Shown here one piece after another: positions 6,372 through 24,747 of a stretch of 31,489 nt of DNA (position 1 is the first letter of the stretch; every line of letters begins with the position of its first letter). The notes below the pieces were generated by a model. That model had not been told where the DNA came from and made no database searches. It saw nothing but the letters and a program-made list of their open reading frames with translations. The position numbers and the translations under genes are program-made. Source of the DNA: a virus. The stretch covers positions 1-31,489 of the IMG/VR virus record IMGVR_UViG_3300037487_001700; one strand, given 5' to 3'.

Positions 6372-6752
6372 ATGGATACCACAGGATTAATTAATGGCGT
6401 AGTTAATGGCAAAATGAGTTTGAAGGCGGCACTAGAAGCGGCTTTTGATGCTGGAGCGAATACAATAAATCCCGACAGAAATCATATTATTGATGTATTA
6501 TTTAAAAATAAAAATATGTTTATCAGAACCGTGACGCATCATTACACGGGAAAATTTGTAATGGTGGCAGATGGATTCATTATTTTAGAAAAAGCGGCAT
6601 GGATTGCAGACGACGGACGATTTTCCGATTGTATTAAGACTGGAAAAATTAGTGAAGTCGAACCTTATTTTGACGACAGAATGATCGTTGGCGTCGGCGC
6701 TATTATTGATTCGTGCGAATGGAAACATGATTTGCCGAGGTCTCAAAAATGA
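6372..6752 (+). CDS. Hypothetical protein, 126 aa
   Basis: AGGAG about 7 nt before ATG 6372 supports the start. The protein begins [20 protein letters not shown] and then alternates hydrophobic and charged residues ([20 protein letters not shown]), suggesting a small alpha/beta fold without membrane segments. No family is recognised. It follows recT and its stop overlaps the start of the G-rich repeat ORF as ATGA, so it belongs to the recombination transcript. Confidence 0.6.
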
Positions 6753-6961
6753 TCAATCAAACTCTCATGAGAGAAGGATATATGCAAAGTTGGAGTAGGA
6801 GTGGGAGTAGGAGTAGGAGTGGGAGTAGGAGTTGGAGTGGGGGTAGGAGTGGGAGTAGGAGTGGGAGTAGGAGTGGGAGTAGGAGTGGGAGTGGGAGTAG
6901 GAGTTGGAGTGGGGGTAGGAGTGGGAGTGGGAGTAGGAGTTGGAGTGGGGGTAGGAGTTAA
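6749..6961 (+). CDS. Ser/Arg/Gly repeat ORF encoded by a G-rich hexamer array
   Basis: ATG 6749 overlaps the previous stop; an inner ATG at 6782 has AGAAGGA upstream. After about 14 ordinary residues the product becomes [17 protein letters not shown]-type repeats and stops at TAA 6959-6961 at the array end. If translated, it would be a strongly basic, disordered, RS-like peptide able to bind nucleic acid. The ORF may equally be a by-product of a DNA element: hexamer arrays stay open in some frames by chance. Translation is therefore uncertain. Confidence 0.35.
6792..6959 (+). repeat. Array of 28 GGAGTN hexamers, G-rich on the + strand
   Basis: From 6792 to 6959 the sequence is 28 units of GGAGTA, GGAGTG or GGAGTT, with three GGGGTA variants. 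Higher-order copies exist: the five-unit series GGAGTA-GGAGTT-GGAGTG-GGGGTA-GGAGTN occurs three times, offset by 12 and then 6 units, which points to growth by slippage or unequal exchange. The regularly spaced G runs could form G-quadruplex structures on the + strand. Confidence 0.9.
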
Positions 6962-15025: not shown

Positions 15026-16420
15026 ATGAGTATTCCGCATGGTATCTATTTTTGGCATCTTGATAAACTTAATTTTGATTACTTGGCTGCATTGAAAAAA
15101 GCGAACTGCAAACGGGTTTATTTAAAGACACTTGACGATGCTAGTGCAGGGATATTCTGGAAAGATCAATGTACAAAAAAGAATATTGAAAAGTTCAATT
15201 TATTCGGGATCGAAGTTGTCGCTTGGGGTTACGTTTTTGATAAGAGAAAAACAACGGATGTTGCAGGCATTGTTGACGCTGTTAAAAAATCAATTGAATG
15301 CGGTTGCATTGGCTTTGTTGTCGATATCGAAGCAGAAGTTGAGGACAGATCAACACATACTCAAGTCGAAGAATTAATGAAGGGAATTCGCACCGTAGTT
15401 CCAGAGGGGCAGTTGGGCTACACGTCCTTCGGAAACCCTGCGAGCCATGCAAGTGTGCCATACGAAATTCTTCAAAAATATTGCGATTATCAACAGCCGC
15501 AAATGTATTACAAACTGTGGACATTTGACGTAAACGAAAGTGAAGTTGTCAAAGCCTTTCAACAGCACATAAATATGGGATTAAATGAAAAACCTATTTA
15601 TCCAATATTCACAGCCGAGCAAAATGCAGACCCAAAAGAACTACAAAAGTTTCTCGATAAATACGAAGGAAGCTCGGTATACGCAGCACAATGTCCAACT
15701 GCTTGGGAAATTGATTATCATGCAGACCCAGCTCCAAAGCCTATTCCTACAGAGAACGGCAAGATTGTTCGCTGGATAATCAACCAAAATGACGCTTCTG
15801 ACGTGAGGGGAGTTGACGCAAATAATAAGGTCGTCTGTTGGCTCGACGGTGGCGCAAACTTCGAGACAAGTTATTACAATGCGCTCGCCGCAGGAAACGG
15901 AAAAGCCAAATTCTCGATTGAAAGCCTGCCAAAAAAACCAAGCACAACGCCTCCTCCGTTTCCAATTCCTCCTGCAAAAACTGATGCAGAAAGATTTGTT
16001 GATTATTACAAAAATAACTACATGGCAGTGAGGGCGCTTGTCGAATCTTGGTTCACTCCTCAGCACTCGCCAACAGCCGAAAAGAACGGTTGTGCAGCTC
16101 ATTGTAGATCGGCCCTATGCTTGGCAGGCTTCCCAAATCCAGACCCAAAAACAGAGACGCTAGCAGCGATCAACGCCGACAAGTTTTACGCCTGGCTCAA
16201 AACTAACGGCTATAAAAAAATAACAGACGTTGCGAAATTGTTGCCTGGGGATATTTGCTTCAGTGGAACAGAGACAGATTTGACTCACGTTTACGTCTTT
16301 AATAAATACATCAATTCCGATGTTGCAGAAGTGCTTGATAATCAAAAAGTCGGCTTACATCCTCGCTCTCTTTCTGGGGTCGGGTGCGGTCGCTTCGTTA
16401 GTGCGTTGAGGTTTCCGTGA
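15026..16420 (+). CDS. Two-domain endolysin-like protein: TIM-barrel glycosidase-like plus C-terminal Cys/His amidase-like domain
   Basis: AAAGGAG lies about 8 nt before ATG 15026. Residues 1 to about 235 read as a glycoside-hydrolase-like barrel: IPHGIYFWHLDKLNFDYLAA, VVAWGYVF, CIGFVVDIEAEVED with candidate catalytic acids, LGYTSFGNP and YCDYQQPQMYY. A middle module (KIVRWIINQNDASDVRGVDA) and a Pro/Thr linker follow. The C-terminal 145 residues have NGCAAHCRSAL (C356) and LTHVYVF (H421), the spacing of a CHAP/NlpC-type peptidase or amidase. It would degrade peptidoglycan by two bonds. It has no signal peptide, so a holin or other carrier is needed. Unusually, it sits next to early regulatory genes, far from the holin-like genes near 3.2-4.3 kb. 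Confidence 0.65.
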   Translation: MSIPHGIYFWHLDKLNFDYLAALKKANCKRVYLKTLDDASAGIFWKDQCTKKNIEKFNLFGIEVVAWGYVFDKRKTTDVAGIVDAVKKSIECGCIGFVVDIEAEVEDRSTHTQVEELMKGIRTVVPEGQLGYTSFGNPASHASVPYEILQKYCDYQQPQMYYKLWTFDVNESEVVKAFQQHINMGLNEKPIYPIFTAEQNADPKELQKFLDKYEGSSVYAAQCPTAWEIDYHADPAPKPIPTENGKIVRWIINQNDASDVRGVDANNKVVCWLDGGANFETSYYNALAAGNGKAKFSIESLPKKPSTTPPPFPIPPAKTDAERFVDYYKNNYMAVRALVESWFTPQHSPTAEKNGCAAHCRSALCLAGFPNPDPKTETLAAINADKFYAWLKTNGYKKITDVAKLLPGDICFSGTETDLTHVYVFNKYINSDVAEVLDNQKVGLHPRSLSGVGCGRFVSALRFP

Positions 16421-16842
16421 ATTACGAGGCTTTTATAGCTGACGTTGAACGAAATATGATTGTGAGCATTTTGCAGGCATACAATGGGAACGTCACTAAG
16501 AGTGCAGATTATCTTGAGTTAAAGCGTACAACTCTCATTGCAAAGATAGAGAGATTAGGCATTAAAGTTGAGCAATGCGTTGGATACAACGAAACAAAGG
16601 CCGTGGCGCATTGCGTTGGATACAACGAAACAAAGGCCGTGGCGCATTGCCACAGAATCAGTGGCCTGAATGTTATCAAACGAGATATTATCATCGAGGC
16701 GCTGAAGAAATGCGAGTACAACAGGCACAGAGCGTCGATAATGGTTGGCATGAGCTACCGAACAATATCGTCATTTGTGCGCGATATGAAGGCAGAGGGA
16801 ATGATTATTCCCGATCGAACAGATATTAAATGGAGGAAGTAA
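16417..16842 (+). CDS. Double Fis-like helix-turn-helix protein, 141 aa
   Basis: GTG 16417 overlaps the lysin stop (GTGA) with GAGG 6 nt upstream. Residues 10-48 (VERNMIVSILQAYNGNVTKS then LKRTTLIAKIERLGI) match the Fis C-terminal DNA-binding helix-turn-helix; residues about 88-130 (IIIEALKKCEYNRHRASIMV then SYRTISSFVRDMKAEGM) form a second similar unit. They are joined by a linker containing an exact duplication of 12 residues (CVGYNETKAVAH, twice). Such a tandem HTH would bind paired sites or bend DNA. As the gene precedes the ParB-like gene, it may control the modification or packaging genes; this is inferred. Confidence 0.7.
   Translation: MNYEAFIADVERNMIVSILQAYNGNVTKSADYLELKRTTLIAKIERLGIKVEQCVGYNETKAVAHCVGYNETKAVAHCHRISGLNVIKRDIIIEALKKCEYNRHRASIMVGMSYRTISSFVRDMKAEGMIIPDRTDIKWRK
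16576..16647 (+). repeat. Exact 36-bp tandem duplication inside the HTH gene
   Basis: Bases 16576-16611 and 16612-16647 are identical, 36 bp each, and keep the frame. No third copy is visible. Being exact, the duplication is probably recent or selected. Confidence 0.92.
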
Positions 16843-17636
16843 TGAGCGAAGTTGAGAAATTGAAAATAGTGTATTTGAAAATTGGTGATGTGAAACCGTA
16901 TGAACGCAATAATAAAAAGCATTCGCAAAACCAAGTCGATAAATTGGTAAAAATTATTCAAGCCGGCAAGTTTGATGTACCGATAGTTGTGGACGCAAAT
17001 AATGTGATAATCAAAGGCCATTGTAGACTTCTGGCATGTAAGAAATTAAAGATGAAGGAAGTTCCTTGCATTATCCGCGCTGATACAAGCGAAATACAGA
17101 ACAAGACAGATAGAATTGCAGATAACAAATCCGGCGAGCTAGCGGAAACTGATATGGAAAACCTGAAGCTCGAAATGGCTGATCTGCAATTAGAAGGAAT
17201 TGATGTCGAGTTGACTGGATATGACAGTTGGGATTTTAGCGGAGATAATACGGAAGGCAATGAACCTGTAAAACCCGACCTCGATAACTACACAAAGAAA
17301 ATAAAATCTCCTGTTTACGAGCCGAAGCAAGAGAAAAAACCTGCGATTAAAGAGCTGTTTGATACAACAAAAACAGATAAACTGCTCGCAGAAATAAATC
17401 TCTCCAAACTTCCAGAAGCCGAAAAGAATTTTCTTCGTTTTGCGGCATATCGGCACGTTGTTTTTAATTATGAGAACATAGCGGAATATTATTCCCACTC
17501 AGAAAAAGAAGCTCAGAATTTAATAGAAAACTCGGCAATGGTTATCATAGATTTTAACAAGGCAATAGAGAACGGATTTGTAGTTTTATCTCAAGAGATA
17601 GCGGAGGCATATACAAATGACTCTGACAAATCTTGA
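16842..17636 (+). CDS. ParB-like (ParB/Srx) protein of the phage DNA-modification type
   Basis: ATG 16842 is chosen because GGAGG (16832-16836) is 5 nt upstream; the upstream ATG 16830 would include it. The N-terminal 80 residues are a ParB/sulfiredoxin domain: IGDVKPYERNNKKHSQNQVD, FDVPIVVDANNVIIKGHCRL with the GHxR box at 59-62. A middle AETDMENLKLEMADLQLE region resembles ParB/RepB helices. The C-terminal part (SPVYEPKQEKKPAIKELFD, FLRFAAYRHVVFNYENIAEY, VIIDFNKAIENGFV) is found in phage ParB proteins beside DNA-modification genes. In such systems the ParB domain may bind or hydrolyse nucleotides or direct the enzymes to DNA. The next gene, overlapping by 20 nt, is a TAGT-like glycosyltransferase. 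Confidence 0.75.
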   Translation: MSEVEKLKIVYLKIGDVKPYERNNKKHSQNQVDKLVKIIQAGKFDVPIVVDANNVIIKGHCRLLACKKLKMKEVPCIIRADTSEIQNKTDRIADNKSGELAETDMENLKLEMADLQLEGIDVELTGYDSWDFSGDNTEGNEPVKPDLDNYTKKIKSPVYEPKQEKKPAIKELFDTTKTDKLLAEINLSKLPEAEKNFLRFAAYRHVVFNYENIAEYYSHSEKEAQNLIENSAMVIIDFNKAIENGFVVLSQEIAEAYTNDSDKS

Positions 17637-18480
17637 TAACTTCGCAGCCTTTATTCTTACTCACGGAAGACCTGATAACGTAATTACATACAAGACGTTG
17701 AGACGATCAGGATATACTGGTAAAATTTATGTTATTATTGATAATGAAGATAAAACCGCTTCCCAATACAAAGAAAAATATGGTGGCGAAGTTATTGTTT
17801 TCGATAAAAAAGCAATATCAGAGACCTTTGATGAGGGAGATAATTTCGGTGATCGTAGGGCAATTATCTATGCAAGAAATGTCAGTTTCGAAATAGCAAA
17901 GAAATTAGGAATTAAATATTTTATCCAATTAGACGATGACTATACGAGTTTTCAGCATAGGTTTAATCGTGAATTTATTTATGCTCCGAGGGGTATTAAA
18001 AATATAGATGCTATTTTTGGTGCTTTATTAAAATTCTATATTAATACAAATATTGCCGCTGTTGCTCTTGCTCAAGGGGGTGATTTTATTGGAGGCGAAG
18101 GTATACCAGGGGCTCAAAAAATAAAACTTAAACGTAAATGTATGAACTCGTTTATTTGTTCTACTGAAAGACCATTTCAATTCGTCGGCAGGATAAATGA
18201 GGATGTAAATACTTACACAAGGCTAGCTAGCACGGGGTTATTATTATTTACAACAAATCAAGCTACATTAGGGCAACTACAAACCCAATCTAATTCCGGT
18301 GGTATGACTGACTTGTATCTTGATTCAGGCACGTACGTGAAAAGCTTTTACTCAATTATGTATCACCCAAGTTCGGTAACAATTAAAATGATGCGAAGTA
18401 AGCATTCGAGGCTTCATCATTCCGTCAAATGGATTAATACAGTCCCATTAATTTTAAGCGAAGATTTAAAGAAAAAATAA
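17617..18480 (+). CDS. TET-associated glycosyltransferase (TAGT)-like protein, predicted DNA base glycosyltransferase
   Basis: GCGGAGG about 9 nt upstream supports ATG 17617. The 287-aa protein has a GT-A layout: NFAAFILTHGRPDNVITYKT, GKIYVIIDNEDKTASQYKEK, then KYFIQLDDDYTSF with the metal-binding DDD motif at residues 106-108, and late His residues (SKHSRLHHSVKW). This combination matches the TAGT family that in phages sits with ParB proteins and TET/JBP dioxygenases and glycosylates 5-hydroxymethyl pyrimidines. The ParB partner is present; a TET/JBP gene is not in the window. The acceptor base and sugar are therefore unknown. Its 3' end meets a minus-strand operon with only 5 nt between stops. 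Confidence 0.7.
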   Translation: MTLTNLDNFAAFILTHGRPDNVITYKTLRRSGYTGKIYVIIDNEDKTASQYKEKYGGEVIVFDKKAISETFDEGDNFGDRRAIIYARNVSFEIAKKLGIKYFIQLDDDYTSFQHRFNREFIYAPRGIKNIDAIFGALLKFYINTNIAAVALAQGGDFIGGEGIPGAQKIKLKRKCMNSFICSTERPFQFVGRINEDVNTYTRLASTGLLLFTTNQATLGQLQTQSNSGGMTDLYLDSGTYVKSFYSIMYHPSSVTIKMMRSKHSRLHHSVKWINTVPLILSEDLKKK

Positions 18481-18485
18481 AATAT

Positions 18486-18623
18486 TTATTTGGATTTTTC
18501 AGTGATAGCCCATTCGACATCGGGGCGATTGTCGAGGTTTTTAAGAAATTTATTCATGTCTGATTTAAGCCTGAATTCGAATATCTCTGTTTTGTCGTCG
18601 ATCTTAACGGCTACGAGATACAT
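18486..18623 (-). CDS. Small hypothetical protein, 45 aa, minus strand
   Basis: On the minus strand ATG 18623 follows AAAGGAG with 8 nt between, and the frame runs 45 codons to TAA 18486. The product (MYLVAVKIDDKTEIFEFRLK at the start, DNRPDVEWAITEKSK at the end) is a plausible small alpha/beta protein. It overlaps the upstream minus-strand gene by 20 nt and so is its last operon member. The function is unknown. Confidence 0.65.
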   Translation of the reverse strand: MYLVAVKIDDKTEIFEFRLKSDMNKFLKNLDNRPDVEWAITEKSK

Positions 18624-18969
18624 TTTGAGTGCTCCTTTTTGCTTGAACTGCAGCTCGAAAAGCTACGAGCTTTGCCTGTAAAAGCCTGAGTTGTAATTCC
18701 GTTGCTGCCATAGTTGCCTCCTTTGCTTGTTGATATTTCACCATAGGCGCGGCGTAGTATTCCTGCAGCGCAATAATACCAGCCGTAATTAAAACCTCTG
18801 GGTCTTTGTGTATCTGCCGATAAAAATCAGGATAAGTAAACGCTTCGTGCGCCTCCGTAATTGCTTTACGGTATTGGCACAGGCGAGGGAATTTTGCAGC
18901 CATAGCAAGCGCCCGTTGCCAATCCTCGGCAGCCATTAAATCAAGCAGTTGAGATAATTTGGTTTCCAT
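18604..18969 (-). CDS. Helical phage protein, 121 aa, minus strand
   Basis: Start ATG 18969 overlaps the stop of the upstream gene as TAATG; ATG 18981 is an alternative. The protein is Ala/Leu-rich and helical: LSQLLDLMAAEDWQRALAMA, FPRLCQYRKAITEAHEAF, YPDFYRQIHKDPEVLITAGI. This LMAxxDWxxALxxAxxFPRL pattern recurs in uncharacterised phage and prophage proteins. It may bind another protein through a helical-repeat-like surface. No enzymatic motif is seen. Confidence 0.65.
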   Translation of the reverse strand: METKLSQLLDLMAAEDWQRALAMAAKFPRLCQYRKAITEAHEAFTYPDFYRQIHKDPEVLITAGIIALQEYYAAPMVKYQQAKEATMAATELQLRLLQAKLVAFRAAVQAKRSTQNVSRSR

Positions 18970-19352
18970 TAGATTACCCATCGTTTAAACGCCGCGTTTT
19001 TTGTTTTTCCGACAGCGTTACCGCGAAATATATTAATATAGTCACCAATTTCAAATACTAAATAAATATTTAAGCATTTTTTTCCAAAGCTAGAATTTGG
19101 GTCAAGCTGTAGATAATATTCTTTACCTCCAGACATAAAATTATTAATTCCTGTTTTGCGGAGTTGAGCATCAAAATATTTTTTTGACCCAAAAATTGGC
19201 CCATTCGCGTCTCTGTCGATGACTTTGTACTGACGTTTACCGATAGTCGCTATCGATATTTGAGTGCCGTTTGTCGTGAGGTATTCGGTAATTTCTGCAA
19301 GGACATCGACTAATTTACCGGTAGTTCTCATCACTCTGATATATCGTTCCAT
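18969..19352 (-). CDS. Hypothetical protein, 127 aa, minus strand
   Basis: On the minus strand GGAGGG is 4-5 nt before ATG 19352, a strong site. The protein starts MERYIRVMRTTGKLVDVLAE and has a mixed alpha/beta look with a central basic patch (SIATIGKRQYKVIDRDANG) and an exposed Cys (GKKCLNIYLVFEI). No family is recognised. It is tightly joined to the next minus-strand gene. Expression is presumably from the promoter at 19603-19631. Confidence 0.6.
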   Translation of the reverse strand: MERYIRVMRTTGKLVDVLAEITEYLTTNGTQISIATIGKRQYKVIDRDANGPIFGSKKYFDAQLRKTGINNFMSGGKEYYLQLDPNSSFGKKCLNIYLVFEIGDYINIFRGNAVGKTKNAAFKRWVI

Positions 19353-19412
19353 GTCAGCCCTCCTTTGTTGTTTTGGCCTTACTTAATACATCGGCAGGCT
19401 GGCGGAAAAACT

Positions 19413-19559
19413 TTAATCCTTGAGCGCAGCTCGCAAAACAGTAACCAAATGAGTTCCATCGTCTCGCAGCTTTCCAACACTAATAATGTGATGTCCCAAA
19501 ATCATAATATCGATCACTTTTCGCGCCAATTCCGATGTTTTTATGTGCAGAAATATCAT
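19413..19559 (-). CDS. Small hypothetical protein, 48 aa, minus strand
   Basis: ATG 19559 (minus) has AAAGGG 5 nt upstream; the frame gives 48 codons to TAA 19413. The product, MIFLHIKTSELARKVIDIMI then GHHIISVGKLRDDGTHLVT, looks like a compact alpha/beta peptide. A promoter-like pair lies about 44 nt upstream, making this the first gene of the minus-strand operon. In the 60 nt before the next gene another frame reads FGYCFASCAQGLKFF-like sequence without a start, possibly a damaged further gene. The + strand ORF over this region (19365-19655) is antisense and not supported. Confidence 0.6.
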   Translation of the reverse strand: MIFLHIKTSELARKVIDIMILGHHIISVGKLRDDGTHLVTVLRAALKD

Positions 19560-19602
19560 AACAGCCCTTTCCAAAGTTACCCAAAATTATTCTGGGATTC
19601 AC

Positions 19603-19631
19603 ATTTTATTTTGATGTATTGGCGAAGTAAA
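19603..19631 (-). promoter_or_regulatory. Sigma70-like promoter driving the minus-strand operon
   Basis: Read on the minus strand, TTTACT (19631-19626), a 17-nt spacer and TAAAAT (19608-19603) form a good promoter. The expected transcript start near 19596 leaves a leader of about 37 nt before ATG 19559. The spacer has the same length as in the two promoters of the + strand. Confidence 0.55.
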
Positions 19632-19694
19632 GACTTTTTTTGTCAAACAGGATAATATCCCGCCGCACGATTAATTTTATTGGAGAAAATTTGT

Positions 19695-20693
19695 ATGAAA
19701 AACTTGGCAGTGATTTGCCCTTCCCAAACTGATGCAACAAGCTTTTACAGGGCCGTTGGGCCGTTGGCGGAGCTTCGCCGCGAGCGCAGCGACTTGGCCC
19801 TTACCTTTATTAATTCGATCGACTGGGCCACGCTTAAGCTTTGTGACGCGGTCTTCCTGCAGCGACCCTTTTCAAATAACCATTTAATGATTGCAGAGCT
19901 GACAAAACGGAATCGCTTGCCGCTCTGGCTTGATTTCGACGACGATCTGTTTTGCGTGCCAGCGTGGAATCCTTGTGCAGCAATTTACAACAAGCCCGAA
20001 ATCCAAAAGAACGTAGCTACGATGGCCGCCTTGGCAGATGTGATTACCGTTAGCACAGAGGCGATCCGAGTAAAGCTTTTACCGCTCAACAAAAATATTG
20101 TGGTTGTCCCGAATGCTTTTGATGCGAGGCTTGTAGGAGATCGGCTAGCGAGAGCTAGCGACCGCCAAGGGCCGCTAATAATGTGGAGGGGAAGTAAGAC
20201 TCACCGGAAAGATTTGAACGTTGCAGGAGAGTCTTGTATTCAACTCGCCCAGGCAAATCCAAATTCAACTTGGCTCTTTCTTGGTGAGACGCCTTGGTTT
20301 GCAGACTTCATGCCTCACAAGCAAACAATTTGCGCTGAGCCAATCGACCCGATCGAATACTGGGAATTCCTGGGCAAAACTCAACCAACAATTATGATCG
20401 TCCCGCTCGATGACTGTGAATTTAATAGGGGCAAATCAAATATTTGCTGGCAAGAGGCAAGCTTTGCAGGGGCCGCAACATTGGCACCAAATTGGACAGA
20501 ATGGCAGAAGCCAGGCGTTACAAACTACAAATCAGATTCGGATTTTCTCCCTGCGCTCGCCTCAATGTTTGACGCGTCAAAAGATCAGCTAATTGTTAAC
20601 GCAGAAAAATCATGGCAATATATAAACAATAATCTGCTTTTATCGATAGTTAATAAAAAACGTCACGCAATTCTGGAGGAATTATGTCCGTAA
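19695..20693 (+). CDS. GT-B (family 4-like) glycosyltransferase
   Basis: ATG 19695 has GGAG 9 nt upstream; the in-frame ATG 19680 is the alternative. The 332-aa protein opens MKNLAVICPSQTDATSFYRA, typical of phage-encoded GT-B enzymes, and has a C-terminal Rossmann part: NIVVVPNAFDARL, GPLIMWRGSKTHRKDLN, WLFLGETPWF, and the donor-site region ending NRGKSNICWQEASFAGAAT with the Glu expected for nucleotide-sugar binding (E in WQEA). The donor and acceptor are unknown. It precedes the packaging genes and probably modifies DNA, following the ParB/TAGT genes, or a virion protein; both remain possible. Confidence 0.75.
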   Translation: MKNLAVICPSQTDATSFYRAVGPLAELRRERSDLALTFINSIDWATLKLCDAVFLQRPFSNNHLMIAELTKRNRLPLWLDFDDDLFCVPAWNPCAAIYNKPEIQKNVATMAALADVITVSTEAIRVKLLPLNKNIVVVPNAFDARLVGDRLARASDRQGPLIMWRGSKTHRKDLNVAGESCIQLAQANPNSTWLFLGETPWFADFMPHKQTICAEPIDPIEYWEFLGKTQPTIMIVPLDDCEFNRGKSNICWQEASFAGAATLAPNWTEWQKPGVTNYKSDSDFLPALASMFDASKDQLIVNAEKSWQYINNNLLLSIVNKKRHAILEELCP

Positions 20694-20998
20694 AAAAATT
20701 AGTTAATTTGCATGAAGTCATGCAGGACGCCTGCTTCGAGGGAATGATGCTTGAAAGCACCGCCGATTATCAAAGCGAAACAAAGCCAAAAAGACTACGC
20801 CCTGTGGTAGTTCAGAGCTTCCAAATCGATCAAGCGCTCAAGCTGACGTTAGATAGTATCTGTCAAACCAACGGAGCAACAGCAAGCTCATTCCTGCGAG
20901 AATGCACACGGAAGTTAATTAGTGAATACGAAGGCGTGGAAATTGGCAGCACAAAATGGATTAAAACATACGGTCAAATAGAGGGGCGCAATGATTAA
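20684..20998 (+). CDS. Ribbon-helix-helix-like DNA-binding protein, 104 aa
   Basis: GGAGG (20675-20679) is 4 nt before ATG 20684, overlapping the glycosyltransferase by 10 nt. The C-terminal half has RPVVVQSFQIDQALKLTLDS then TNGATASSFLRECTRKLISE, which fits a ribbon-helix-helix strand and two helices with an N-terminal extension. It directly precedes the small terminase, so it could regulate packaging genes or assist DNA recognition. No closer family is recognised. Confidence 0.55.
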   Translation: MSVKKLVNLHEVMQDACFEGMMLESTADYQSETKPKRLRPVVVQSFQIDQALKLTLDSICQTNGATASSFLRECTRKLISEYEGVEIGSTKWIKTYGQIEGRND

Positions 20999-21518
20999 AA
21001 AGCCTCTCGATAAGACTAATTTGGACGATAAATTAAAGCGCAGGGCGAAAAGCTATTACACAAAAACATATGTCCCAACAATGAGAACTTGCCACACAAT
21101 CGAACTATTAACGAGCGTTGGTCTCGGAGTTCATGCTGTTGCTGCAGATCTTGGCGTCTCTCATGATCGCATTGAGGACTGGCGAAAAGAATATCCTGAG
21201 ATTGAAACAGCATTCCAGGTTGGCAGATTGAAGCGACAAAAGCGTGCTTACGCTTGCTTTTACAATCAGGCTTTTCCAGTAGATGAAAAAGGAAAACCGA
21301 CCCACAAGGGCGATCCTGCTTTAATGATTTTTTGGATGAAGACAAGAGAGAAATGGAAAGAGGCGGCGAAGGATATTAATCTTAATTCCAAAGACGCACC
21401 TACATTGACTTTTGCTCTCAAAAAAGAAATCAGCGAACAGGAAATAGCAGATGCGAGAGAAGACAAAACGACGCGCCAACGGAAGCCGAAAAGCGCAGTT
21501 AAAAAAAGAAGAAAATAA
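20991..21518 (+). CDS. terS: Terminase small subunit
   Basis: The 175-aa protein overlaps its neighbours (8 nt before, 68 nt after). It has a helix-turn-helix: TIELLTSVGLGVHAVAADLG then HDRIEDWRKEYPEIETAFQV, the pattern of phage small terminases that recognise the packaging start. A helical middle (RQKRAYACFYNQAF, ALMIFWMKTREKWKEA) fits the oligomerisation core, and the C-terminus is basic (KTTRQRKPKSAVKKRRK). It binds phage DNA and hands it to the large subunit encoded next. Confidence 0.8.
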   Translation: MIKKPLDKTNLDDKLKRRAKSYYTKTYVPTMRTCHTIELLTSVGLGVHAVAADLGVSHDRIEDWRKEYPEIETAFQVGRLKRQKRAYACFYNQAFPVDEKGKPTHKGDPALMIFWMKTREKWKEAAKDINLNSKDAPTLTFALKKEISEQEIADAREDKTTRQRKPKSAVKKRRK

Positions 21519-22845
21519 TAAATTAGTTGAGTTCCTGCCGTGGCAATGGGAGTCGCTGAATAGCAAATGCGAACATTTTGCTATGATTGGTGGTGTTGCC
21601 ACGGGCAAAACTTTTACTGGGTCGCATTTTGTTATTTCTCAGGTAGTCAATTTCCCTGATCAAACTGGATTTATCGGGGCCAACACTTACGATCAATTAA
21701 GCCAAGCTACCTTACGGGAGCTTATGTATTGGCTTGATGAATACGGATTTGAGTATGTAATCGACAGGATTCCTTTCTGGACAAAAGAAAAGAAGTTCAA
21801 GTCATACAACAACATTTTAAGCATTCGAGTCGGGAATAAAACGGCTTACATTTTTACTCGTGTTTTGGGCGATGCAAATCCTTTGCGTGGTATCGAATTT
21901 TCATGGTATTGGCTCGATGAATCAAGGGATACTCCGCTTAATACTCATGATGTAATTATGTCTCGTTTGCGTGAGAGTAAAACAATACGAGGATTGGTAA
22001 CAACTACTCCTGCTGGAGAGGATTGGGTTTGGAAACGATTTGTATGGAATAAAGATGCACGCTTTGGATACATTAAAGCAAAAACAGAAGACAGCGCCAA
22101 ATATGGAATTATTACTCAAAACTTTTACCTCACTTTGCGTTCGTCTTATTCTCCAGTGATGGCAGCTCAAGAGCTTGACGCCGAGTTTGTAATAGTGCTT
22201 GAGGGCCGCAGTTACTACACTGCCAGCCCTGCAAACGAAGAATTTGACTACGAGCCAAGCGACTATGAATTATTTGTTGGCATGGATTTCAACTTCGCAC
22301 CTGCGCCATGCGTGTGGGAAGTCGGGCAAATTGATGACGACGGCGACGTGCATGTATTTGCAGAAATCAGCGGTAAAGAAGTTTCCAGTGCAGAGCTGGC
22401 AAGGCGTTTGGCAATCCAATTTGGAGATTATCACCTGCGAATATTTGGCGATGCAAGCGGTAACAGAGGCACGACAAGCAATGCAGGCAAAACAGATTAC
22501 GACCAAATAGCAGAGGTGCTTTCAGAGTATGGAGTGAGTTTTAGCATCGACGTTGACCAGGCAAACCCAATGGTAAAAGATCGGGTCGAAAATACCTGTA
22601 GGCTCTTGGAAGACGGAAATGGAAAACGGACTCTTAAATATGACCCGAATAAATGTCCTTATTTGCATGAAGACTTTAGAAAAGTTGTTTGGAAAAATGG
22701 CAAAGTGAGCGGCAACGGCGACGAGACACTAACTCATGCCTCAGATGGTCTCGGTTATAGCCAAATGAAGCTCAATCCACCTATGGGAGGCAAGGTTAAG
22801 ATGGGCAAAAATGTAGGAAGCCTAGCAAGTAAAATGGGAGAATAA
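21451..22845 (+). CDS. terL: Terminase large subunit (packaging ATPase and nuclease)
   Basis: The 464-aa product has the complete set: Walker A at residues 47-54 (GGVATGKT), Walker B YWLDES at 153-158 and a coupling segment LVTTTPAG (182-189). The RNase H-like nuclease follows with acidic residues D279 (VGMDFNFAP), D334 (IFGDASG) and D432 (HASDGLGY). It cuts concatemeric DNA and drives it into procapsids through the portal encoded at 24795. Start ATG 21451 lies 68 nt inside the small-subunit gene; the N-terminal 25 residues are basic and may be a linker. Confidence 0.93.
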   Translation: MREKTKRRANGSRKAQLKKEENNKLVEFLPWQWESLNSKCEHFAMIGGVATGKTFTGSHFVISQVVNFPDQTGFIGANTYDQLSQATLRELMYWLDEYGFEYVIDRIPFWTKEKKFKSYNNILSIRVGNKTAYIFTRVLGDANPLRGIEFSWYWLDESRDTPLNTHDVIMSRLRESKTIRGLVTTTPAGEDWVWKRFVWNKDARFGYIKAKTEDSAKYGIITQNFYLTLRSSYSPVMAAQELDAEFVIVLEGRSYYTASPANEEFDYEPSDYELFVGMDFNFAPAPCVWEVGQIDDDGDVHVFAEISGKEVSSAELARRLAIQFGDYHLRIFGDASGNRGTTSNAGKTDYDQIAEVLSEYGVSFSIDVDQANPMVKDRVENTCRLLEDGNGKRTLKYDPNKCPYLHEDFRKVVWKNGKVSGNGDETLTHASDGLGYSQMKLNPPMGGKVKMGKNVGSLASKMGE

Positions 22846-22847
22846 AG

Positions 22848-23633
22848 ATGATTGGAATCGGAATTACAACGCGAAACAGACCGAATATTTTACATGCATG
22901 TTTGCTGCATTTTGCTGCATTTCTGCCAAAGGACGCGCTCTTTGTAATTGTTGATGACGCAAGCAAGCAATGGGAAAACAACCAAGCAATTGTCGAAAAT
23001 TTCAGCAACGACCACGGCAACCATTGCAAAGTAATTTACAAATACAACAAAGACCGCCTTGGTATTTCTGGGTCAAAAAATGAATGCTTGCTGGCCCTGC
23101 AGGAATGTGAGGACGTGTTTTTATTTGACGATGATGCGTGGCCTCAGAAAGAAAATTGGGATCAAATTTGGATAGCAGCAACAAGATGCCACGGCATCGG
23201 TCACAGCCTTTGGGCTACTCCTGTTGATTTTATCAAGGCGATTGGAATTGTTGGCAACGGAGAAACAGAGCTGACAATTTGGAATCAATGCCTGGGAGTA
23301 TGCTTACACTTCAATCGGGCCTGTTTAAATGCTTTGGGCGGCTACGACACGCGAGCAAAACTCTACGGCTATGAACACGCACAAATGAGCCAACGAGCAC
23401 ACAAGGCCGGATTTACGCGCTTTAATCCGTATGTTAGTCCAAGCATTTCTTCTGATCTTATTTACTCGCTCGATATTAGTTACGGCTGGAAAAAACAACA
23501 GCCGCTTTTGGTCGCGTGGGATGAGCCGCTTGTTTCCAGTGTGACACAAGAGGAAGCCCAGACGGGCGCAAAAGAAAATCTACATATTCTGCAAAATTAT
23601 CCTATTTACATTGAATTGAAAGGTGCGAAATGA
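22848..23633 (+). CDS. GT-A (family 2-like) glycosyltransferase
   Basis: Start 2 nt after terL with GGGAG about 8 nt upstream. The 261-aa protein begins MIGIGITTRNRPNILHACLL, has DALFVIVDDASKQW, then LGISGSKNECLLAL and VFLFDDDAWPQ with the metal-binding DDD at residues 94-96. The late ALGGYDTRAKLYGYEHAQMS fits the acceptor/catalytic region with Glu. It transfers a sugar from a nucleotide donor to an unknown acceptor. Its position between terminase and methyltransferase genes suggests membership in a DNA-decoration set, but capsid or tail glycosylation is also possible. Confidence 0.78.
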   Translation: MIGIGITTRNRPNILHACLLHFAAFLPKDALFVIVDDASKQWENNQAIVENFSNDHGNHCKVIYKYNKDRLGISGSKNECLLALQECEDVFLFDDDAWPQKENWDQIWIAATRCHGIGHSLWATPVDFIKAIGIVGNGETELTIWNQCLGVCLHFNRACLNALGGYDTRAKLYGYEHAQMSQRAHKAGFTRFNPYVSPSISSDLIYSLDISYGWKKQQPLLVAWDEPLVSSVTQEEAQTGAKENLHILQNYPIYIELKGAK

Positions 23634-24181
23634 AAGTTGGAATATTGTGCGAATATTCTGGCCGCGTTCGCGATGCTTTTATTAAATTAGGACATGATGC
23701 AGTATCGTGTGATTTATTGCCAACAGATGCTCCAGGGCCTCATATCCAAGGTGATTGCCTACTTCAAGATTGGTCAAGGTTTGATCTTTTAATTTGTCAT
23801 CCGCCATGCACTCATTTGGCCGTAAGTGGTGCAAGATATTTTTATAAAAAACAAAAAGAACAAATTGAAGCATTGAATTTTGTTATAGCATTAATGGCAT
23901 TGCCAGTTGAGAGAATATGCATTGAAAACCCAATAAGCGTAATATCCTCCAAGATAAGAAAGCCAGATCAAATTATTCAACCTTGGCAATTTGGACATGG
24001 TGAAACAAAAGCAACTTGTTTATGGCTTAAGGGATTATCTAAATTAATTCCAACAAATATTGTGGGGGGGCGAGAGCAGAAATGTCATTTATGTCCTCCT
24101 TCTAAAGACAGATGGAAGATAAGAAGTACAACATATCAAGGAATAGCTGACGCTATGGCGCAGCAATGGAGTTCAAAATGA
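23630..24181 (+). CDS. Minimal cytosine-C5 DNA methyltransferase-like protein
   Basis: The start overlaps the GT-A stop (ATGA). The 183-aa protein shows the C5 methyltransferase order: MKVGILCEYSGRVRDAF (motif I), VSCDLLPTD, FDLLICHPPCTHLAVSGARY (motif IV, catalytic C60), ICIENPISV (ENP, motif VI, 99-101), a TKATCLWLKGL segment and a late TYQGIADAMAQQW resembling motif X. A target-recognition domain is lacking: ordinary Dcm-like enzymes are about twice as long. In modified phages such short enzymes prepare 5-methylcytosine for further oxidation or glycosylation. Specificity is presumably low or partner-dependent. The 7-G run at 24064-24070 could cause slippage. Confidence 0.72.
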   Translation: MKVGILCEYSGRVRDAFIKLGHDAVSCDLLPTDAPGPHIQGDCLLQDWSRFDLLICHPPCTHLAVSGARYFYKKQKEQIEALNFVIALMALPVERICIENPISVISSKIRKPDQIIQPWQFGHGETKATCLWLKGLSKLIPTNIVGGREQKCHLCPPSKDRWKIRSTTYQGIADAMAQQWSSK

Positions 24182-24747
24182 AATTAAATCTTGGTTGTGG
24201 TAAAAGTCGATTCCCTGGTTGGACTAGCGTTGATCAAATCGACTACGGAGACAACGTAGTTTTTGACCTCGACAAATTGACAAATAGCGGGCGAAAACTG
24301 CCATTCGAAAATGATTCCTGCAGTGAATTTATTCTGAGCCACGTTATCGAGCATTTGCACGATACGCTCGGCCTTTTCGATGAGCTCCACAGAATCGCAA
24401 AGCCAGGGGCAATTTGTCACGTTGCGGTACCTTTCGCCTTTTCCGATGAATCAATCGAGGATCAAACGCACGTTCGGCAATTTACTTTTAACTCGTTTTG
24501 TTTCTTCTCCCAGCCTGTTTATTGTAATGCAGATTACGGATACCGAGGAGATTGGCATTGCGAAAAAGTTATTGTGTCAGTTGATAAAAAATACAAAAAT
24601 ATGCAACACTCCGCACTTGTGGAACTTTGCAAAACCCAAAGAAATATCGGCAAAAATATAAACGCTGATTTGATAGCCATAAAGCCAGCAAGGGAACAAA
24701 AAGCCGAACTGGTTACCGTTCCTCTTATAGAATTTCAATTTGTTTAG
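24178..24747 (+). CDS. Class I SAM-dependent methyltransferase
   Basis: ATG 24178 overlaps the previous stop and has GGAG 7 nt upstream; ATG 24166 would place that site inside. The 189-aa protein has KLNLGCGKSRFPGWTSVDQI (SAM-binding motif I), a following acidic loop, and LSHVIEHLHDTLGLFDELHR then AKPGAICHVAVPF, matching type 11 methyltransferases. A C-terminal HVRQFTFNSFCFF segment is typical of phage and sugar-cluster homologues. Targets may be sugars or bases. It completes the modification set before the portal gene. No membrane segments are present. Confidence 0.75.
   Translation: MKLNLGCGKSRFPGWTSVDQIDYGDNVVFDLDKLTNSGRKLPFENDSCSEFILSHVIEHLHDTLGLFDELHRIAKPGAICHVAVPFAFSDESIEDQTHVRQFTFNSFCFFSQPVYCNADYGYRGDWHCEKVIVSVDKKYKNMQHSALVELCKTQRNIGKNINADLIAIKPAREQKAELVTVPLIEFQFV

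Follow-up and report, generated by a model that had tools for sequence, protein, structure and literature searches.

A ParB-like adapter and a TAGT glycosyltransferase as a likely two-gene module for TET-independent glycosylation of phage DNA

The TAGT glycosyltransferase family owes its Pfam name to the TET/JBP-TAGT systems of phages. Phage pathways that combine a C5-methyltransferase, a TET enzyme and a glycosyltransferase reportedly exist, as described in a 2021 PNAS paper. In phage systems with DpdA a ParB-like gene can be positioned directly before the DpdA gene, as in CRB2 (PMC6392294), base modification of Rosebush DNA has been measured (PMC6884629), and the ParB-like DpdB was described as an ATPase which works with DpdA (PMC12839542). 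A ParBc protein was also found with many of the CmoX carboxymethylcytosine systems, which carry out a two-step DNA hypermodification (PMC12783734). In phage Thanatos a pentose is attached directly to cytosine without a hydroxymethyl group, so there is a precedent, of another kind, for TET-free base glycosylation (PMC12838424). A TAGT-like domain is carried by GREB1 as well (PMC6163654).

We analysed a whole linear virus record of 31,489 bases (the window). Since the record is a fragment, no flanking sequence was left to search. A first-pass annotation had seen a possible DNA hypermodification system interleaved with the packaging genes, and all the open reading frames it named are present where it placed them. 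We consider it likely that two of these genes, the adapter (16842) and TAGT (17617), form a module in which TAGT is held on a DNA ring for TET-independent glycosylation of DNA. The features of the locus are as follows.

16842..17636, + strand: adapter gene, a ParB-like N-domain fused to a TAGT-partner C-domain (PHROG 620, 9e-50; ParB/Noc/KorB fold for the N-part; C-part conserved with TAGT)
16854..17234, + strand: ParB N-domain, residues 9-135 numbered from 16830 (Foldseek matches to Noc and ParB-CDP structures, E from 3.5e-5)
17289..17327, + strand: conserved peptide of the linker, YTKKIKSPVYEPK, part of which falls where the model has low confidence, residues 140-159 (Y154, P161 and Y163 invariant in 50 sequences)
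17289..17594, + strand: TAGT-partner C-domain, RHxVFxYxxIAxYYAHxxKExQxLMExSALVIIDFxKAIExG
17617..18480, + strand: TAGT glycosyltransferase, GT-A fold (Pfam PF20691; 20 nt overlap with the adapter gene)
17932..17940, + strand: codons of the DDD (DxD-type) motif, residues 106-108 (invariant in 56 TAGTs)
18199..18204, + strand: codons of E195-D196 (NED motif), candidate catalytic base (D196 invariant, E195 in at least 90%)
20991..21518, + strand: terminase small subunit, packaging context (PHROG 309, 3e-11)
21451..22845, + strand: terminase large subunit, packaging context (Pfam Terminase_6N, 1.4e-10; PHROG 2, 1.4e-27)

The start of the adapter gene at 16842 is supported by a GGAGG just 5' of the ATG, while its open reading frame opens at 16830. 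The window also holds a gene for a Fis-type HTH protein in which a segment of 12 residues is duplicated in tandem (VGYNETKAVAHC twice; 16417-16842), a short open reading frame of Ser/Gly/Arg repeats almost throughout (6749-6961), and two genes on the - strand (18604-19352) between TAGT and the glycosyltransferase at 19695.

The identity of 17617-18480, proposed earlier as TAGT-like with structure prediction as the check, was borne out. It matched PF20691 with 123.5 bits against a curated cut-off of 27.5 (E = 1.4e-35), and its AlphaFold model (pLDDT 85.5, pTM 0.85) found GT-A glycosyltransferases in Foldseek, with the invariant DDD as the DxD of this fold. A PDB sequence search with this protein gave no match. 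Two or three tandem TAGT paralogues were seen in five loci (L183, L185, L192, L200 and L202); they keep the DDD motif and D196, so that two sugars would be possible, and E195 is kept except in two L183 copies.

The ParB-like N-part of the adapter gave the ParB/Noc/KorB fold with ParB-CDP and Noc among the matches, and in a PDB sequence search the protein found only weak matches (E 0.29 or worse). Compared with the chromosomal ParB partition protein, the window's ParB has only the N-domain, and the remainder of the protein is the TAGT-partner domain. The usual central DNA-binding and C-terminal dimer domains are absent, and its ring behaviour is therefore putative. In relatives the N-domain is variable (median pairwise identity 27.7%), whereas the C-terminal 100 residues reach 55.4%. 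This helical domain of about 100 residues, with ten residues invariant across 50 sequences, has no match in Pfam or PDB. From its conservation we take the C-domain, and not the ParB domain, to be the conserved partner of TAGT, and the linker peptide is a possible docking peptide. The C-domain was also considered as a metal enzyme and rejected, as H223 is conserved in only ~90%.

The coupling of TAGT to the ParB-like protein, which the first-pass annotation had pointed out, is conserved. As in DpdB-like arrangements, the ParB-like gene lies directly upstream of a putative base-modifying enzyme, and the 20 nt overlap is kept in relatives. For comparison we took the 80 TAGT loci on virus contigs that were closest to the window's and added annotated phages and E. 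coli. In 85 of 88 loci, counting the window's copy, the counterpart of its ParB gene ends within the TAGT start, and the remaining three are contig edges. TAGT lay directly 3' of the partner-domain gene in 117/118. Among all 268 partner-domain genes, TAGT was adjacent in 255 and in the same locus in 267; the single exception ends 18 nt before its contig end. When 84,980 species genomes were scanned with nothing but the C-domain, 32 loci were found; in 31 of them an overlapping TAGT follows downstream, and in one TAGT lies 0.8 kb further on. Hosts of the cassette include Bacteroidota, Firmicutes, Proteobacteria, Verrucomicrobia, Kiritimatiellae, Cloacimonadota and a Falkowbacterium. The pair is also present in the haloarchaeal virus HHTV-2 and Nocardia phage NTR1, and in Vibrio phage phiKT1024 the C-domain stands alone, directly before TAGT. 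In a sampled Bacteroidia genome a divergent TAGT was missed by the search profile; its upstream neighbour matches PHROG 17622, which the window's ParB matches too. A DNA search of phages with the whole gene block gave no match and a terminase-based search for relatives no confirmed one. Judged by these sequences, the system (16842-17636 plus TAGT) appears to be a widespread, self-contained unit of two genes.

We found no TET/JBP gene in the window, in 51 related virus records or in 32 genomes. None of five complete phages that have the cassette (E. coli vB_EcoS-666R9, HHTV-2, phi jlb1, NTR1 and c5) carries a TET/JBP, thymidylate-synthase-family, PF00145 or PHROG 757 gene. The dCMP/dUMP hydroxymethylase of the thymidylate synthase family is absent from the window as well, and matches to that family were confined to two large phages, phiKT1024 and Aeh1. 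The literature on HHTV-2 held no information on its DNA modification. The first-pass annotation had noticed the missing TET/JBP gene and offered two explanations. The gene need not be outside the window, since the five complete phages lack it, and the other one, a sugar attached by another route, is better supported. Phage Nigel served as the positive control for the TET search. The best Pfam match of its gene 2 (L087:776-1744) is Tet_JBP (4e-6, below the Pfam cut-off), and its annotation as a queuine tRNA-ribosyltransferase is likely wrong. The gene sits between the ParB gene and the terminase genes, which indicates that this slot can hold either TET or TAGT.

The partner domain is fused to ParB in about half of the 268 genes, usually beside terminase as in the window, whereas the ParB-less adapters are mostly in replication operons (PolA, beta clamp, primase-helicase). 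The N-terminal starts of stand-alone C-domains contain motifs of the beta-clamp-binding type, for example MKQINLFG, QPTLDIF, QFTMF and QSELF. This idea was then tested on 153 new virus loci; several of them are repeat fetches of one contig, which somewhat inflates locus counts, and the motif test was run on unique N-termini. The strict motif (Qxx[LM][FL] or Qx[LM]x[LMI]F) was found in 60 of the 94 held-out unique N-termini of ParB-less adapters, against a mean of 1.5 and a maximum of 6 in shuffles. The other 34 comprised 28 degenerate motifs and 6 with none. Linkers of ParB-fused adapters had no strict motif (0/112). In L220-L372, loci with a nearby phage beta clamp had a degenerate motif in 29/38 and those without one mostly a strict motif, relatedness not being controlled; a strict motif where the phage clamp is absent perhaps reflects use of the host clamp.

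Operon context could be called for two-thirds of the loci, with about a third left without a call. ParB-fused adapters were in packaging context in 61 cases and in replication context in one, whereas for ParB-less adapters the counts were 6 and 84. The earlier proposal of a link with packaging thus agrees with the relatives, where TerL or TerS adjoins most ParB-fused cassettes. On the TAGT tree we counted 13 changes of adapter type, at least 5 of them on supported branches. When relatedness was controlled, two independent adapter-operon pairs on supported branches were usable; both go in the expected direction and are too few for significance.

From this we propose the following mechanism. The C-terminal domain of the adapter would bind TAGT and so hold it on a DNA-gripping protein ring, which in the window would be the ParB domain. 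In the sister architecture the ring would be the beta clamp of the replisome, reached through the N-terminal clamp-binding motif. With a nucleotide-sugar as donor, TAGT would then add a sugar to a base of the phage DNA, the ParB form acting late, near packaging, and the clamp form at the replication fork. The route would do without a TET/JBP or hydroxymethylase step, and the acceptor is therefore probably a base that is unmodified or that the host provides. The modification may protect from nucleases. Gene pairing, domain modularity, motif exchange, the operon split and the absence of TET and hydroxymethylase genes are read from the sequences themselves. That sugar is probably put on the virus's own DNA, as the first reading had suspected, is suggested by the exchange of two DNA-gripping adapters, by the replication and packaging operons and by the DNA-modifying partners of ParB elsewhere. 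TAGT operons also contain nucleotide-sugar-type or tailoring genes (UDP-galactopyranose mutase, cytidylyltransferase with phosphatase, MobA-like NTP transferase, methyltransferase), and their variety across several operons suggests different donors. Genes for UDP-galactopyranose mutase, CofD-like, MobA-like and phosphatase-cytidylyltransferase proteins were noted in or beside the TAGT operons of L183 (7240-8322), L249, L246, L261, L279 and L283.

The substrate might instead be a protein, such as the ParB/C-domain adapter itself, terminase, the replisome or a host factor, in the way that human GREB1 reportedly acts, and the ring would only bring TAGT there. The E. coli copies of TAGT are annotated as "GREB1-related protein", GREB1 has its TAGT-like domain (PMC6163654), the adapter linker has invariant Tyr residues and the five complete phages lack a base-priming enzyme. 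However, the adapters alternate between two rings that sit on DNA, and their operons between packaging and replication, settings that share no single protein target, and the partners of ParB elsewhere are DNA-modifying enzymes (PMC6392294, PMC12783734). We regard protein glycosylation as unlikely.

The first-pass annotation had joined all six genes in one pathway. In its full form the C5-methyltransferase would make 5mC, a TET/JBP enzyme encoded outside the fragment would oxidise it, TAGT and two further glycosyltransferases would add and branch the sugar, and a second methyltransferase would methylate it. All these enzyme classes do lie within 8 kb, the record is a fragment, and pathways of this composition are said to exist in phages. 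The gene at 19695-20693 matches PHROG 7162 "glycosyltransferase" (3.5e-27; no Pfam match) and 22848-23633 is of the GT2 family (Pfam 5e-6; PHROG 2456, 7e-41). The gene at 23630-24181 matches PHROG 757 "DNA methyltransferase" (3e-66); it has no Pfam match and only weak PDB sequence matches (E 0.29 or worse), and the PPC and ENP motifs conserved in its 80 relatives are those expected of a C5-type enzyme. The last, 24166-24747, matches Methyltransf_11 (2e-6). However, these four genes recur in the 88 TAGT loci with two matches only, of 25% (the 19695 glycosyltransferase, L067) and 26% (the 24166 methyltransferase, L009). TAGT is within reach of 1/80 relatives of the putative C5-methyltransferase, and the 30 other whole records contain no PHROG 757 methyltransferase. 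A 93%-identical relative (L090) keeps the GT2, methyltransferase and portal genes and lacks the C5-methyltransferase. The four are therefore best read as separate accessory genes, and with TET/JBP missing throughout the related records and genomes the single pathway is improbable. In the same relative the minor head protein (L090:4208-6142) has an intein-like insertion of ~350 residues, absent from the window's copy. Least probable of all is a two-step module in which ParB or the partner domain activates the base (e.g. by phosphorylation, ParB/Srx fold) before TAGT adds the sugar: a free serine kinase of this fold is among the fold matches of the ParB-like N-part and DpdB offers an ATPase precedent (PMC12839542), but about half of the systems have no ParB domain and a catalytic centre in the partner domain is unlikely because H223 is only ~90% conserved.

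We thus retain TAGT held on a DNA ring by its adapter as the preferred reading. More tentatively, it may represent a general class in phages, where a small adapter domain docks a glycosyltransferase on the ParB ring near packaging or on the beta clamp at the fork, and TAGT adds sugar to an unmodified base with no prior oxidation or hydroxymethylation.

In E. coli, a query made up mainly of TAGT plus the 3'-terminal part of the ParB gene matched 1006/5426 complete genomes, and 866/5426 (about 16%) over most of its length. The K-12 protein YnaK (L206:2878-3141) in the Rac prophage corresponds to the first 84 residues of the adapter, a truncated ParB N-domain. It was joined to sequence from further along the prophage by an 11.6 kb deletion, in which the C-domain, TAGT and terminase were lost. 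YnaK is a fossil of the adapter-TAGT cassette, which gives this orphan protein an origin. If our reading is true, TAGT is detached from TET, and a DNA sugar is predicted in many phages and prophages, including those of about 16% of complete E. coli genomes. The module would also suggest a reason for the presence of ParB-like proteins beside DNA-modifying enzymes, and the way in which such enzymes reach the phage DNA would become directly testable in laboratory E. coli.

Among the known systems, the TET/JBP-TAGT phages use the same glycosyltransferase family, but the window and the five complete cassette phages lack TET/JBP, and the obligate partner here would be an adapter domain on a DNA ring. 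The deazaguanine systems with DpdA/DpdB or ParB-DpdA (Rosebush, CRB2) share with our locus the ParB-like gene directly before the base-modifying enzyme, as in CRB2, but the enzyme there is a transglycosylase and the C-terminal domain differs. In the Nigel-type cassette (ParB, TET/JBP, terminase) the slot before TerS/TerL and the ParB N-domain are the same, whereas TET/JBP replaces TAGT and no partner C-domain was detected in Nigel. Besides this TET/JBP, an N6/N4 methylase after TAGT in L014 was a DNA-modifying companion seen in ParB context. The CmoX system shares the ParBc companion but has a C5-carboxymethyltransferase and a ligase and no TAGT. Glucosylation of hmC of the T4 type places sugar on phage DNA, as proposed here. 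Aeh1 differs from the window by its thymidylate-synthase-family gene and the lack of a partner domain, while its distant TAGT keeps the DD, NED and HH residues. GREB1 is a human protein which shares the TAGT-like domain and reportedly acts on protein, and we know of no partner domain for it. Finally, ParB-less adapters share the QxxLF-type beta-clamp-binding motif with clamp-tethered DNA enzymes such as UmuC, MutS and Pol III, but here the motif is on the adapter for a glycosyltransferase.
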